Of a DNA stretch of 44,566 nucleotides, positions 19,296 through 25,954 are shown in pieces. The position numbers and the translations under genes were made by a program. Within the stretch, counting starts at the first letter, position 1; each line of letters opens with the position of its first letter. Under the pieces are notes generated by a model. That model saw nothing but the letters and a program-made list of their open reading frames with translations. It ran no database searches and was not told the DNA's origin. This DNA is from Pseudomonas sp. GM78 (GTDB lineage Bacteria; Pseudomonadota; Gammaproteobacteria; Pseudomonadales; Pseudomonadaceae), in the NCBI RefSeq assembly GCF_000282475.1, contig NZ_AKJF01000209.1, positions 1 through 44,566 on the forward strand, written 5' to 3'.

Positions 19296-20105
19296 ATGCA
19301 GTACTGGCCCTTACGCCCCGGCAGCAGTGAACACAGCCTCAATATTGGCCACACCGCCAATCTGCTCGCCAGGATTGGCCTCAACCGCAGCCGATTCCTG
19401 GCGGCGGATCTGCTGCAGGTCATCGGCCCCGCTGTACCGTTGGCCCAGTGCACCATCTTCGCTTATCCCAAGCGCCGTAACCCCCAGGTGTTCTCGTTCG
19501 CGGATCGGGCGCGGGAGGTGTCGCTGCCGGTGATTTCCAACAAGTATGTGCAGCGCTTCTTTGGCCAGGATGGCAACCAGCTGGCCATGAGCCAGAGCAC
19601 CGGCGGGCACAGCACCATCGTGCAGCGCCAGTCCATCGATGACATCACCCATGGCGAGTACCGGCGCATCTGTTACGAGCAGCCGCAGATTTCCGAGCGG
19701 ATGGCCTTGCTGACGCACTGCGAAAGCAACCGCTGGCTGTCGGTGAACTTCTACCGTGGCCGTGAGCATGGACGTTTTTCGGAACGGGAAATGGACTACC
19801 TGGAAACCATCGCACCGCTACTGATTCAGTCCGTGCGCCTGCATTACCACGCTTACTTGCAGGCCAACGAGATGCCCCTGTTGTTGGCCGAGCGGGTGAT
19901 CAGGCAGCAGCACGTGGAGCTGACCGTTCGTGAGCAGGAGTTGCTGCGCCTGATGTTGAGCGGTCTGGCTGTGGAAGACATCGCCGAACAACTGGGTGTT
20001 CGTCCCGTCAGCGCCGCGACCTATGCCAAGCGCCTGTACCGCAAGCTGGGCATCAATGGCCTGCGTGAATTGTTCGGGCTGGCCACTCGGGCGGAGTGGG
20101 CCTGA
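19296..20105 (+). CDS. LuxR-family transcriptional regulator
   Basis: The protein is 269 residues from the ATG at 19296, with GAGAG upstream; a TTG at 19248 in frame is less likely. The last 65 residues form a LuxR/GerE helix-turn-helix (LTVREQELLRLMLSGL, then VEDIAEQLGV and YAKRLYRKLG). The first 190 residues contain no receiver domain and no autoinducer-binding pattern that I can see, so it is a stand-alone effector-binding type. It follows the MFS gene by 76 bp, and the gap holds CGGGCAC/GTGCCCG arms (19235-19275). It probably regulates the upstream monooxygenase-transporter operon; that is inferred from adjacency only. Confidence 0.82.
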   Translation: MQYWPLRPGSSEHSLNIGHTANLLARIGLNRSRFLAADLLQVIGPAVPLAQCTIFAYPKRRNPQVFSFADRAREVSLPVISNKYVQRFFGQDGNQLAMSQSTGGHSTIVQRQSIDDITHGEYRRICYEQPQISERMALLTHCESNRWLSVNFYRGREHGRFSEREMDYLETIAPLLIQSVRLHYHAYLQANEMPLLLAERVIRQQHVELTVREQELLRLMLSGLAVEDIAEQLGVRPVSAATYAKRLYRKLGINGLRELFGLATRAEWA

Positions 20106-21364: not shown

Positions 21365-21736
21365 TTATTTCAAACTCTTCAGATAAGCAATGAGATGCTG
21401 ACGACTTTGCGCATCGGCCTGCCCCGCAAACATCATCATGTTGCCCGGCACCAGGCTGGCAGGGTTTGTCAGCCACTGCTCCAGATTGGCGTCGTCCCAC
21501 TTCAACCTGGCGCCTTGCAGGGCGGCGGAATAGGTAAAGGCCGGAGCCTGGGCACTGGCGCGATCGAACACGCCGTGCAGACTCGGCCCCATCAGGTTCT
21601 TGCCCGCGTCTAGGCTGTGACAGAAGCCGCATTGGGTGCTGAAAAGGGCTTGGCCCTGTTTGACGTCGCCTTGGGCCAGCGCCAGGGGAGCGGCCAGCAG
21701 CAGAGCGCCGGCAGCCAGAAATTGTGTGTACGTCAT
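21365..21736 (-). CDS. Class I c-type cytochrome, mono-haem, periplasmic
   Basis: The 123-residue precursor begins MTYTQFLAAG, has a Sec signal peptide ending near LALAQG, one haem site CGFCH and a likely axial Met in the PGNMMMF stretch. AGGGA precedes the ATG at 21736; the TTG at 21751 is not needed. The fold pattern (GPSLHGVFDRASA, FTYSAAL, LEQWLTNPASLVPG) is that of the c550/c2 group. It lies downstream of pchF in the same direction but behind a strong terminator. It may accept electrons from the PchC subunit and pass them to the terminal oxidase. That role is inferred from position. It is not part of the standard pchACXF set. Confidence 0.88.
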   Translation of the reverse strand: MTYTQFLAAGALLLAAPLALAQGDVKQGQALFSTQCGFCHSLDAGKNLMGPSLHGVFDRASAQAPAFTYSAALQGARLKWDDANLEQWLTNPASLVPGNMMMFAGQADAQSRQHLIAYLKSLK

Positions 21737-21795: not shown

Positions 21796-23364
21796 TCAGA
21801 ATGAGTTGGCGAGGTCGATGCCCGACTTGCCCGGTGCCAGGATGTTGTTCGGGTCCAGCGCACGCTTGATCGCATGTTCAAGCTTGCGCTTGACCGGGCC
21901 GTAGCTCTGCGCAACCCGCTCCTGGAAGGCGGTGTTGACGCGGTATACGGCGTAGCCTTCCTTCTCGAACACATCCAGCAGTTCGGCAAAGCAGGCGTTG
22001 GCGCGCTGGGTCTCTTCGGGGTTGGTGCGGTCATACAACACATCGATCACGTGGTGCATGTCGCGCCAGCCGACGATGAACTCACCGACATAGTCCAGGC
22101 CGTGCTTGTTGAGGATTTTCCTGGCCAAGGCCTGCTGTTTGTCGCACTCGCTGCCCCGGGCCTGGCTCACCGGTGCGAACCACATCGAGCCACCGCCGCC
22201 ACGCCAGTTGTACAGGCCGAACTCCTGCAAGTTAGGTACGCCGGACATCAACTGGGCGCGGTACTTGAACGGCTGGGTGTCACCGGCCTCTTCCTGGGTG
22301 ACGATCCGGCCCTTGCCCAGTTGCTTCAGGGCTGCGGTGACGATGTTCCAGTTGACGTCGACCTGCTCCTGGGTGCCGTACAGCGCGGCGTAGACGTTCC
22401 AGGCGCCCAGGTTCTTGTCTTTCTGGATCTGCTTGAGGATCGCGTCGGACGTCGCGCCCGGCTCGCTGGTGTAGTCGGAGCGGCGGGTGTTGCAGGTGGA
22501 GGCTTCCCAGAGCACACCAGCGATAACCACCGAATTGGGAATGACCTGGGCGATGCGCAGTGGACGGATGAATTCGACGATCTCGGCAATGTCCGATTCG
22601 TTCTCGAACTTGATCTCGAAGGGTTTGAATACCGGAGGTTTTGGCATCAGCCAGAAGCCCATCTTCGTGCAGATACCGTAGTTGGCCTGGGTGAACATAC
22701 CGTCCAGGGTCGGCCCATAGCCCCACTTGAATACCTGCCAGGCGTTGTCGCCTTTCACGCCGCCCATGCCGGTGCGGTACACATCGCCGTTGGCCAGCAC
22801 CACTTCCATGCCGCACTGCATCAGGAAGTGTTCGCCGTAGGGTGTGTAACCCACGCCGCGATCCATGGTATTGCCCAAGGGGCCGGCGATGGCAGACGGC
22901 GCAGAGAACGACAGCATCAACGGCAGGTTGTGTTCCTGGATGTAGTCGTAAAGCTGCTGGTAGGTCACGCCCGGCTCGACCAGGGCGGTACAGAGTTCAG
23001 GGTCGACGTGGAGGATCTTGTTCATCTTCTTCAGGTCGAGAATGATCTGCCCGCGTTGGCCAGGGGCTGCGGAGCCGTACCCGAAGTTGCGACCGGTGGA
23101 GATGGTCCACACCGGGATCTTGTGTTCGTTGCAGATCTTCACCACGCCTTGCACCTGCTCGACGGTGGTGGCGGTGACGGAGGCAGACGGCATGTGCCCG
23201 GCATTGTCCACGGCCATCATGATCTTGGAGTAAGGGATCAGTTGATCGTCTTTGACCAGGACGTTGTCATCGCCCAGCAGTTTGCGAAACCTGGCGATGG
23301 CTTGCTCGAAGTTTGCGCTGTCGACGCCGCGCGGGAGCAGGGTCTTGTTGATTTGCTCAGTCAT
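21796..23364 (-). CDS. pchF: p-Cresol methylhydroxylase flavoprotein subunit
   Basis: The 522-residue protein belongs to the vanillyl-alcohol oxidase/PCMH flavoprotein family. The PP-loop FAD part is at about 60-250 (WTISTGRNFGYGS, GNTMDRGVGYTPYG). Tyr385 in GLYNWRGGGG aligns, one residue shifted, with Tyr384 of PCMH, the residue carrying covalent FAD. Tyr474-Arg475 match the substrate-binding Tyr473-Arg474. It oxidises p-cresol by way of 4-hydroxybenzyl alcohol to 4-hydroxybenzaldehyde and passes electrons to PchC. Relatives act on eugenol or 4-ethylphenol, so alkylphenol range is open. GGAG precedes the ATG. There is no signal peptide, although the enzyme complex is known as periplasmic. 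Confidence 0.93.
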   Translation of the reverse strand: MTEQINKTLLPRGVDSANFEQAIARFRKLLGDDNVLVKDDQLIPYSKIMMAVDNAGHMPSASVTATTVEQVQGVVKICNEHKIPVWTISTGRNFGYGSAAPGQRGQIILDLKKMNKILHVDPELCTALVEPGVTYQQLYDYIQEHNLPLMLSFSAPSAIAGPLGNTMDRGVGYTPYGEHFLMQCGMEVVLANGDVYRTGMGGVKGDNAWQVFKWGYGPTLDGMFTQANYGICTKMGFWLMPKPPVFKPFEIKFENESDIAEIVEFIRPLRIAQVIPNSVVIAGVLWEASTCNTRRSDYTSEPGATSDAILKQIQKDKNLGAWNVYAALYGTQEQVDVNWNIVTAALKQLGKGRIVTQEEAGDTQPFKYRAQLMSGVPNLQEFGLYNWRGGGGSMWFAPVSQARGSECDKQQALARKILNKHGLDYVGEFIVGWRDMHHVIDVLYDRTNPEETQRANACFAELLDVFEKEGYAVYRVNTAFQERVAQSYGPVKRKLEHAIKRALDPNNILAPGKSGIDLANSF

Positions 23365-23377
23365 TGGGTTAGCTCCT

Positions 23378-24070
23378 TCAAGCCTCGATCGAAAACGAAA
23401 CGAAATTACCGGTCAGCGGCGACGGTCGGTGGGCGATCAGTGGGGCTCGCCCGTCGCTGGTAGTGCCCAGGGCCGCGAGGGTGTAGCCCAGCGTGGCCGC
23501 CCATTGGTCTGAGCCGACGCTGTTACGGGCCGCCGCGGACACCTGCAACGGTGCTTGCAGGCCATGCATACGCTGTTCGGTCAGGCTGAAGCCGCTGCCG
23601 CAGGCGTTCAGGCTCAGGCCCAGTTGCGGGGCGCAACCGCTTGCGGCTTCGGCGCTGAGCAGGCGGTGCTGTGAAGCGAGGGGCGTGGCGCGGTGCTGGC
23701 CGAGCCACTGCACGCGCGCGCCAGCGCTGCGCGCCAGGTCGACAATCAGTGCGGCACTGGCATCGTCGACCAGGCCGATGATGCGTTGCGGTTGCCCGCT
23801 GCGCAGGCGTTGTTCAAAACCCAGGATGAAGCCCAGGCTGAGGTCGGTGCGCTGCACCTTGACCTGCTGGCCCGCCGGGCTGGCGTTGACACCCTGGAGG
23901 AAGACCGATTCGGCCACCTCATGGCTGACCAGGGCCAGGGTCGGCAAAGCCGGCTGGGGCCGGGCGCCCAGCACGCTATTGGCCATACTCAGGCCGGAGC
24001 TGCCCATGGCGATACCGGCCAGGCTGCTCAAGGCCAGACCTTTCAGTACCGTGCGACGTTCGACGTTCAT
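23378..24070 (-). CDS. pchX: PchX, Tat-signal protein of the p-cresol operon, function unknown
   Basis: The protein is 230 residues from the ATG at 24070, behind GGAG. It starts with a twin-arginine signal, ERRTVLKG at 4-11, followed by a hydrophobic stretch (LALSSLAGIAMGSSGLSM) and a likely cleavage near Ala30-Ala36. The mature part has a Rossmann-like segment (IIGLVDDASAALIVDLARSAGARVQWLG) and otherwise no domain I recognise. It lies between pchC and pchF with 13 bases to pchF, the same order as the known pchACXF operon of Pseudomonas putida. Because PchF lacks any export signal and binds FAD, PchX could be the Tat escort of PchF, or a maturation factor; this is my inference. Confidence 0.85.
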   Translation of the reverse strand: MNVERRTVLKGLALSSLAGIAMGSSGLSMANSVLGARPQPALPTLALVSHEVAESVFLQGVNASPAGQQVKVQRTDLSLGFILGFEQRLRSGQPQRIIGLVDDASAALIVDLARSAGARVQWLGQHRATPLASQHRLLSAEAASGCAPQLGLSLNACGSGFSLTEQRMHGLQAPLQVSAAARNSVGSDQWAATLGYTLAALGTTSDGRAPLIAHRPSPLTGNFVSFSIEA

Positions 24071-24080
24071 GGCTGGCTCC

Positions 24081-24416
24081 TCAAGGCTTGGTCGCCGGGG
24101 CAGGCGATTTGGAAATGTACTCGGCGACCTGTTGCAGCGCGTTATCGTCGATGAATGAGGCAGGGAACGCCGGCATGGCGCGAAATCCGTTGCGCACAAT
24201 TGCACTGATGTACTGCGCTGGCAGCTGGCGGCCGGTGATTTGGGGGCCGACCTGTTTTTCGTGGCAGTGACCGCACACCTTGGCATAGACGTTTTCCCCG
24301 CCTTTCCAGACGCCGTCGCCATCGGCGGCGGCGTTGCCCGCCAGCACGATGAAGGGCAGGGCAAGGCAGGCAGACAGGGTCCGTTTCACAGCTTGGCTGT
24401 TGAGGAGTGAAGACAT
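24081..24416 (-). CDS. pchC: p-Cresol methylhydroxylase cytochrome c subunit
   Basis: The ATG at 24416 has GGAG seven bases upstream and gives a 111-residue precursor. In-frame ATGs at 24428 and 24452 are less well placed. A Sec signal peptide (KRTLSACLALPFIVLAGNAAA) leads to a mature mono-haem cytochrome with CGHCH and a likely axial Met in FRAMPAF. PchC pairs with PchF in an alpha2-beta2 flavocytochrome and carries electrons from the flavin to the respiratory chain on the periplasmic side. The stop of this gene lies 10 bases before the pchX start. Confidence 0.9.
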   Translation of the reverse strand: MSSLLNSQAVKRTLSACLALPFIVLAGNAAADGDGVWKGGENVYAKVCGHCHEKQVGPQITGRQLPAQYISAIVRNGFRAMPAFPASFIDDNALQQVAEYISKSPAPATKP

Positions 24417-24469
24417 TTCGTACTCCATTTTCTTATTGGCAGGTGGGTTCATGGGGGCCTTGGTCCAGC

Positions 24470-25954
24470 TCAGAACGGATACGCCCTTGGCGCATGTTGC
24501 AGAGTGATCCAGTGGTCAGTGGTGAACTCGTCGATCGCCCAGTCGCCGTTGAAGCGCCCGAGACCGGAGTTCTTCTCACCGCCGAACGGCGCGTTGGGTT
24601 CGTCATTGACCGGGATGTCGTTGACATGGGTCATGCCGGCGTGGATGCGTCGGGCGAACTGCACGCCGCGCTCCAGGCTGGAGGTGAATACAGCGCTGGA
24701 GAGCCCGTATTCACTGCTGTTGGCCAGTTCAAGGGCATGCTCGGCGTCACGGGCGGACTGAATGCCCACCAGGGGGCCAAAGATTTCTTCACGGGCGATG
24801 TCCATGTCGGCGGTGACGTTGCCGAACACGTGCGGCGGCAGAACGTTGCCCCGGGCTTCACCACCAGACAGCAACGTGGCGCCTTCGGCCCGGGCCGTGG
24901 CGATCTTCTCTAGCAGTCCAGCCAGTTGCTTGTTGTTGATCACCGGACCAATCACGGTTTCAGCTTTGTTCGGGTCGCCGTAGGGCAGTGCCTTGACGCG
25001 CTCGACGAATCGCCGGGTGAAGGTTTCCAGCAGCGGCTGCTCGACGATGATGCGGTTGATCGCCATGCAGATTTGCCCCTGGTGGAGGAATTTGCCTACC
25101 ACGGCAGCATTCACGGCCTGCTCGACGTCGGCATCGGCCAGCACCACGAACGGGCTGTTCCCACCCAGCTCCAGGGCAACGTGCTTGAGGTGCTCGCCGC
25201 CGCTGGCGATGCGGCCGATGTTGCGGCCGACCTGGGTCGAGCCGGTGAAGGAGATGAACGCCGGGACCGGGTGCTCGACGAAGGCGTCGCCGATTTCCGC
25301 GCCGGAACCGACCACCACACTGAGCACGCCTGAAGGCAAGCCGGCTTCCTCGAAGATGCGCGCCAGCAACAGGCCGCCGGTGACGGGGGTGTCGCTGGCT
25401 GGCTTGACCACGACGGCATTGCCTAGCGCCAGGGCCGGTGCCAGGGAGCGGGCGGTCAAGTGCAGAGGGAAGTTCCACGGGCTGATCACACCGATCACGC
25501 CCAAGGGGGTGCGGTAAACGCGGCTTTCCTTGCCAGGAATATTGGAGGCAAGGATGCGCCCATGCACGCGGCTAGGCAGGCTGGCCGACTCCAGGGTGAT
25601 GGCGCGGGCGGCGCCCCATTCGATCTGCGCCTTGATGCGCGTACTGCCGGATTCGCGGATGATCCAGTCGATAATTTCTTCACGACGCTCGTCGAAGATT
25701 TTCACCGCGTTGAGCAGCACCTGGCCACGCTCGGCCGGCCCCTTGCTGGCCCAATCGACCTGGGTTACGCGCGCCGTGCGGTAGGCTGAATCGAGGTCTT
25801 CGCGATTGGCCTGGGTGATCTGCAGCAAACGCGTCTGAGTGAAGGGGTCGAACACTTCCAAAGTGCGACCGGCGCTGCCGGCCCGCCATTGGCCGGCGAG
25901 TGGCTGCAATTCAAAGCTCTGGTAGGCAGGGCGAACGGAAGGGGGAGTGGTCAT
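24470..25954 (-). CDS. pchA: 4-Hydroxybenzaldehyde dehydrogenase
   Basis: The 494-residue aldehyde dehydrogenase has PWNFP with Asn161, Lys184 in VVKPAS, the general base Glu262 in LELGGN and the catalytic Cys296 in GQIC. The [12 protein letters not shown] stretch near the C terminus is typical of the vanillin/4-hydroxybenzaldehyde branch. As first gene of pchACXF it converts the aldehyde made by PchFC into 4-hydroxybenzoate, the substrate of PobA encoded at 30441-31628. The substrate is inferred from context, since vanillin dehydrogenases look alike. A sigma54-type promoter lies 45-60 bp upstream. AGAGGTGA serves as ribosome site. Confidence 0.9.

Follow-up and report, generated by a model that had tools for sequence, protein, structure and literature searches.

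p-Cresol methylhydroxylase (PCMH) is a periplasmic enzyme, a classic flavocytochrome of that compartment, and its flavin subunit carries no signal peptide. The twin-arginine translocation (Tat) system exports folded proteins and the general secretory (Sec) pathway unfolded chains, so a folded, signal-less protein holding flavin adenine dinucleotide (FAD) needs a Tat partner; c-type cytochromes are exported by Sec and receive their haem outside the cytoplasm. A bisphenol F paper of 2025 still explains the export of a PCMH homologue by the Sec signal of its cytochrome. The stretch of DNA described here, called the window, comprises 44,566 nucleotides of Pseudomonas sp. GM78 (assembly GCF_000282475.1, contig NZ_AKJF01000209.1, positions 1 to 44,566 of the forward strand) and holds genes for a PCMH flavin subunit, PchF, and a cytochrome subunit, PchC, with the gene of a small Tat-signal protein, PchX, between them. 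The latter is presumably the pchX gene of the pchACXF operon of P. putida. Comparison of related loci indicates that PchX is very probably a dedicated Tat hitchhiker escort of the signal-less PchF. This gives a testable answer to an old export question and a candidate function to an orphan gene family. No function for PchX was found in the open-access literature, and the available parts of PMC7411048, PMC6472588, PMC6208669, PMC11302072 and PMC10054333 were unrelated to it.

The closest described systems are the FAD glucose, gluconate and fructose dehydrogenases, which, according to the available part of PMC6719666, combine a FAD catalytic subunit with a Tat-signal small subunit and a haem c subunit; in the Burkholderia cepacia glucose dehydrogenase (BcGDH) the gamma subunit is a Tat hitchhiker small subunit needed for secretion of the catalytic subunit. 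The catalytic subunit of these enzymes is a GMC oxidoreductase with an iron-sulphur cluster, whereas PchF is of the VAO/PCMH type. The gamma subunit of GMC dehydrogenases stays in the complex, whereas the PCMH structure consists, as we take it, of PchF and PchC alone. PchX gave no match to the gamma-subunit family (which we take to be named Gluconate_2-dh3) in a Pfam scan at E up to 1. BcGDH gamma has five alpha-helices (PMC6719666, same part), whereas PchX is predicted to be an alpha/beta protein and has no Pfam match. PchX would meet the same need as the GMC-dehydrogenase gamma subunits by a second route, apparently unrelated to theirs. Hydrogenases likewise leave the cytoplasm as Tat hitchhikers through the signal of one subunit; in them, as in PaoABC, this signal presumably lies on the cofactor-bearing enzyme subunit, whereas inspection of PchX by eye reveals no cofactor motif. 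The likeness to PaoABC is that the Tat signal of one subunit exports folded signal-less partners (available part of PMC4273604). PchX would be a new escort family for a known kind of export. Within the PCMH-like enzymes themselves, some flavoproteins carry their own Tat signal. The example from Novosphingobium sp. ES2-1 (L010) belongs to the same enzyme family and adjoins the gene of a cytochrome c with a Sec-type leader; it differs from the present locus in that the cytochrome gene is followed by a flavoprotein starting MSDLNLDRRGLLGAG, which is its own Tat signal, and no small pchX-like Tat gene lies nearby.

The genes of the window form one minus-strand run, as follows.

24470..25954, minus strand: pchA, aldehyde dehydrogenase, which heads the run; name and function are presumably those of the known pchACXF operon
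24081..24452, minus strand: pchC, cytochrome c subunit with a Sec-type leader (Pfam Cytochrome_CBB3, E 5.2e-18)
23378..24070, minus strand: pchX, Tat-signal protein of 230 amino acids, proposed export escort of PchF
24053..24058, minus strand: twin-arginine codons of PchX (R5-R6, ERRTVLKG)
21796..23364, minus strand: pchF, FAD subunit of p-cresol methylhydroxylase, 522 amino acids, no signal peptide, proposed cargo (Pfam FAD_binding_4)
21365..21736, minus strand: second c-type cytochrome gene, directly 3' of pchF (Pfam Cytochrom_C, E 1.8e-8)

Tat and Sec signals were called throughout from motif and hydropathy, not with SignalP or TatP. PchC has a hydrophobic, Sec-type leader, MSSLLNSQAVKRTLSACLALPFIVLAG (judged by eye and by the hydropathy rule), and a CxxCH haem site. 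The N-terminus of PchX, MNVERRTVLKGLALSSLAGIAMGSSGLSMANS, opens with MNVERRTVLKG, in which the arginine pair at residues 5-6 is followed by a hydrophobic stretch; PchX is the sole Tat-type protein found by the Tat rule between positions 20000 and 27000, and a TatC gene is present in the genome. PchF begins MTEQINKTLLPRG, and a leader is absent. The sequence-only reading of this DNA had likewise given pchC a Sec-type leader, pchX a twin-arginine signal and pchF none, and these assignments were confirmed within a single minus-strand operon. Its start for pchC at 24416 proved to be an internal ATG, the gene extending from 24452; the Sec-type leader stood. The best PDB matches of PchF are 1dii chain A (E 2.4e-301) and 1wve chain A (4-cresol dehydrogenase). 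Judged from its sequence, PchF is the flavoprotein of p-cresol methylhydroxylase: it is a VAO-type FAD protein, has Tyr385, which we take to be the FAD-linking residue, and is encoded with an adjoining gene for a cytochrome c subunit, pchC.

Close relatives of the locus were the best 80 pchF loci from a scan of species genomes (78-97% identity). Directly upstream of pchF, 78 of the 80 have a Tat-signal open reading frame (ORF) of 160-241 amino acids, RR-type in all 78, with a gap of 11-19 nucleotides in 65 (range -4 to 36). The two loci without it (L077, L082) end at a contig edge, with only 114 and 178 nucleotides upstream. PchF has a Tat signal of its own in none of the 80, and a cytochrome c gene lies upstream of pchF in 77 by our own rule. 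The presence of a Tat-signal gene upstream of pchF exceeds chance: among 178 other large genes of the same loci, taken as a control, a Tat-like non-cytochrome ORF lay upstream in 12 cases and downstream in 7. Over 69 aligned PchX orthologues the mean column identity is 42% and nine columns are invariant, R5 and R6 among these; when five more divergent rows are added, R5 and R6 are the sole invariant columns. For X groups (PchX-like Tat-signal proteins) outside the 80 close loci the finding rule demanded RR, so that their RR invariance follows in part from the search itself; the set of 80 loci is less affected by this selection because every locus with enough sequence had a Tat-signal gene.

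Presence and absence were scored in a sample of 398 Pseudomonas genomes. The Pseudomonas-type PchX profile matches 18 of them and the PchF profile 23, of which 18 at E below 1e-250 (canonical pchF). The pchX genomes and the canonical pchF genomes are the identical 18, and the pair is adjacent and co-directional in 18/18. Co-occurrence of pchX with signal-less pchF, which the sequence-only reading had proposed as a check, was thus borne out in the same 18 of 398 Pseudomonas genomes and in the 78 of 80 close loci. The remaining five PchF genomes and a second copy in one genome (G1092) hold divergent PchF relatives (n=6). Five of these have an adjoining cytochrome c, and all five have an X-like Tat gene (L267, L268, L270, L271, L272; the start of the last was read by eye); the sixth (L269) has neither. 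The figure of 18/398 covers the close pchX type only, because the profile missed the five divergent X genes, which were later located by position.

The wider PchF family was assembled from a phylum sample, two family samples and other loci and gave 250 hits, 234 of them distinct and 231 of at least 480 amino acids; three shorter rows (L128 second, L170, L174) were left out. Coverage of the family samples was 36 loci and 60 regions (most, not all) for 121 places, and 38 of 72 places. Four rows were corrected by hand before counting (L223 for its 'own' signal; L165, L204 and L180 for their 'X'), and five were scored unknown for short upstream sequence (L077, L082, L125, L177 second, L243 first). 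Among the 231 proteins, X accompanies PchF with a cytochrome in 135 cases and without an adjoining cytochrome in 44. The proteins without X comprise 14 with their own Tat signal and a cytochrome, one with its own Tat signal and no cytochrome, seven with a cytochrome only and 25 with neither; five are the unknown rows. PchF relatives that lack cytochrome, X and signal alike are presumably cytoplasmic oxidases. Gene order varies among plasmid-borne relatives, being cytochrome, small Tat protein, flavoprotein in Sulfuricurvum (L007), Massilia (L008) and Rhizobium (L009), and small Tat protein, cytochrome, flavoprotein in Novosphingobium (L006, L011).

A match to the X-family hidden Markov models lies near none of the 15 PchF proteins with their own Tat signal, as against 135 of the 142 signal-less ones with an adjoining cytochrome c (Fisher p 5e-16, relatedness ignored). 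A cytochrome-linked PchF that lacks a signal is thus paired near-strictly with a PchX-like protein bearing a Tat signal. That X is missing near flavoproteins with a Tat signal of their own suggests that the signal is what X contributes. On both strands and up to 8 kb around all 15 own-Tat PchF genes no X was found (best profile E 0.0095, without a Tat start), the range being shortened by contig ends for L281 and L285 and amounting to 4-5 kb for L010 and L165; this search was made because the first had covered about 1.4 kb on each side, on one strand, for 13 of the 15. In the genome G505 the sole PchF relative (at E 1e-60) is of the own-Tat kind, and there is one weak match to the downstream-type X profile (E 1.2e-4), which falls on the Tat signal of a 512-amino-acid oxidase-like protein. 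In a tree of 100 rows the own-Tat proteins occupy two separate places (the ES2-1 clade with seven rows, and L128) amid X-partnered rows; the tree is unrooted, so that gain and loss of the own Tat signal are indistinguishable. The proposal of the sequence-only reading that PchX is a Tat hitchhiker escort is thus supported by comparative genomics, through the co-occurrence and through the lack of X near own-Tat PchF.

In the proposed sequence of events PchF would fold in the cytoplasm and take up FAD non-covalently. Mature PchX would bind the folded PchF, and the twin-arginine signal of PchX would bring the pair to the Tat translocon for joint export, while PchC would cross separately via Sec and acquire its haem outside. 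In the periplasm PchF would be handed over to PchC, after which the covalent FAD-Tyr bond would form, and PchX would be released or lost. Export of PchF in an already flavinylated state, as the sequence-only reading had it, is probably wrong, since the cytochrome subunit is required for covalent FAD attachment (Kim et al. 1995, available part) and the bond should therefore form after export. The FAD-linking Tyr is missing in 28 of 42 PchF representatives with X and a cytochrome and kept in 14; X thus accompanies PchF relatives without the linking Tyr, and its role appears not to be tied to covalent flavinylation. The Tyr is present in none of eight own-Tat representatives. By the Tyr385 alignment column, covalent Tyr-FAD is the minority state in this sample. 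Poor assembly of such enzymes in preparations made without PchX may be due in part to its absence. An escort would be of value in lignin and cresol biocatalysis, a field in which relatives of these enzymes are engineering targets.

PchX could instead be an exported periplasmic factor for folding or for the joining of PchF to PchC, with PchF crossing by a different route, perhaps carried by the Sec signal of PchC. Export of this kind, by the Sec signal of the cytochrome, has been put forward for the homologous BpfAB in the 2025 bisphenol F paper, and export of PchX by its own signal, together with its conservation with PchF, would suit such a factor. This alternative is nevertheless unlikely. 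PchF proteins with their own Tat signal keep an adjoining cytochrome c in 14 of 15 cases and so should depend on an assembly factor as well, yet none of the 15 has an X neighbour. It is also established that Sec takes unfolded chains, which should prevent a folded flavoprotein from crossing along with a Sec-exported cytochrome. In the clusters of Sphingobium yanoikuyae SJTF8 that fit the description of bpf, the gene immediately following that of the cytochrome encodes a Tat signal.

Other roles of PchX fare worse. An independent periplasmic protein of cresol metabolism, acting for instance in substrate binding or electron transfer and carrying a Tat signal unrelated to PchF, would agree with a weak structural likeness to alpha/beta proteins, periplasmic binding proteins among them (none at Foldseek E 0.001). 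It is very unlikely, given that no cofactor motif is seen in PchX by eye, that pchX is tied to canonical pchF genome by genome (18/18), and that X is absent where PchF has its own Tat signal. Slightly less likely still is a factor for FAD attachment or flavin delivery, which the position of pchX within a covalent-flavoenzyme operon and a predicted alpha/beta, partly Rossmann-like fold (all matches weak) might suggest: the Tat signal places PchX outside the cytoplasm, the available part of Kim et al. 1995 assigns the attachment requirement to the cytochrome subunit, and a flavinylation factor was rejected on the pairing of X with PchF relatives without the linking Tyr (28 of the 42 cytochrome-linked representatives).

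Several observations weigh against PchX as an escort. Seven of the 142 signal-less, cytochrome-linked PchF proteins have no X in a same-strand operon (L172, L180, L187, L188, L234, L235, L238). A profile search of the genomes and inspection of the loci located an X that is divergent but adjoining for L187 (L258) and L188 (L259). For L172, L180, L234, L235 and L238 it is found solely elsewhere in the genome, as KR-type genes (L256 in the genome of L234 and L238, L260 in that of L235) or as other X genes (L253 in the genome of L172, L252 in that of L180), so that escort in trans would be needed, which is possible. KR also replaces RR in two X proteins encoded beside pchF, L228 (VNKREFLAGS) and L233 (VSKRQFLTGA). 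The 44 PchF relatives that have X without an adjoining cytochrome, by our own rule, mean that X is not strictly tied to a cytochrome partner. An independent-pairs test of Tat source against adjoining cytochrome yielded 7 pairs with a median p of 1 and had no power. An AlphaFold2 model of PchX and PchF as one read-through chain was poor, with a mean predicted local distance difference test (pLDDT) of 69.4, a predicted template-modelling score of 0.44 and a PchF part largely of low confidence, so that it counts neither for nor against binding.

The KR motifs of L228 and L233 offer a natural test of twin-arginine strictness. The unlinked KR-type genes L256 (G503, MNKREFLKAS) and L260 (G429, MNKRDFLKAS) both lie, by eye, downstream of an apparent ribosomal protein S1 gene. 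Among the Burkholderiaceae-like loci L136-L164 and L217-L224 the PchF relatives are mostly paired with X and have no cytochrome c gene beside them.

Searches with the PchX sequence gave no Pfam family at E up to 1 and no PDB match; only residues 2-29 of PchX match a Tat-target NCBIfam model, far below the cut-off. The AlphaFold2 model has a mean pLDDT of 84.6, with per-block means of 79-97 from residue 41 on, and predicts an alpha/beta mature part with 8 strands besides helices. Foldseek returned no match to the model at E 0.001, and VIA-align gave middling alpha/beta matches only. An azurin-like or redox role for PchX was rejected, a cofactor motif being absent by eye. With the signals removed, the downstream (sphingomonad-type) and Burkholderia-type X proteins are related (97.7%). 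Between the Pseudomonas and downstream types the match is weak (48%, against 0.1% for the reversed control), and between the Pseudomonas and Burkholderia types there is none (0.4%). Of the 82 loci in which X immediately precedes pchF, however, 39 are matched by the profile of the mature downstream X (E 0.01). By eye the types have in common a GL-x-DD-type core and a C-terminal strand (VSFSIE, GWVLAP and similar); the short X of Novosphingobium has no profile link to the other types. On balance we lean towards the wider view that PchX-like proteins are a fast-evolving, hitherto unrecognised family of dedicated Tat escorts that have an alpha/beta fold of their own, bear no relation to the helical escorts of GMC dehydrogenases, serve most cytochrome-linked PCMH/VAO flavoenzymes across Proteobacteria and Campylobacterota and hand PchF to PchC in the periplasm before the covalent FAD bond is made.

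In the S. yanoikuyae strain mentioned above, twin bpf-like clusters each have a Tat-signal gene (MSAIEVTRRVALGAG) between the cytochrome and hydrolase genes.

L245 (Sphingobium yanoikuyae SJTF8 plasmid pF1), 571-1140 and 6997-7566: unnamed Tat-signal genes of the twin divergent clusters, right after the cytochrome gene

The match of this gene to the X profiles is weak (E 0.0058 with the signal, 0.53 without). By gene order, across differing strains, it probably corresponds to orf5017, which is unnamed in the main text of the 2025 bisphenol F paper.

The second cytochrome c gene of the window (21365-21736), on which the sequence-only reading was silent, may encode a soluble electron acceptor replacing azurin. 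Similar cytochrome genes lie 3' of pchF in the two Novosphingobium plasmid loci, L006 and L011.

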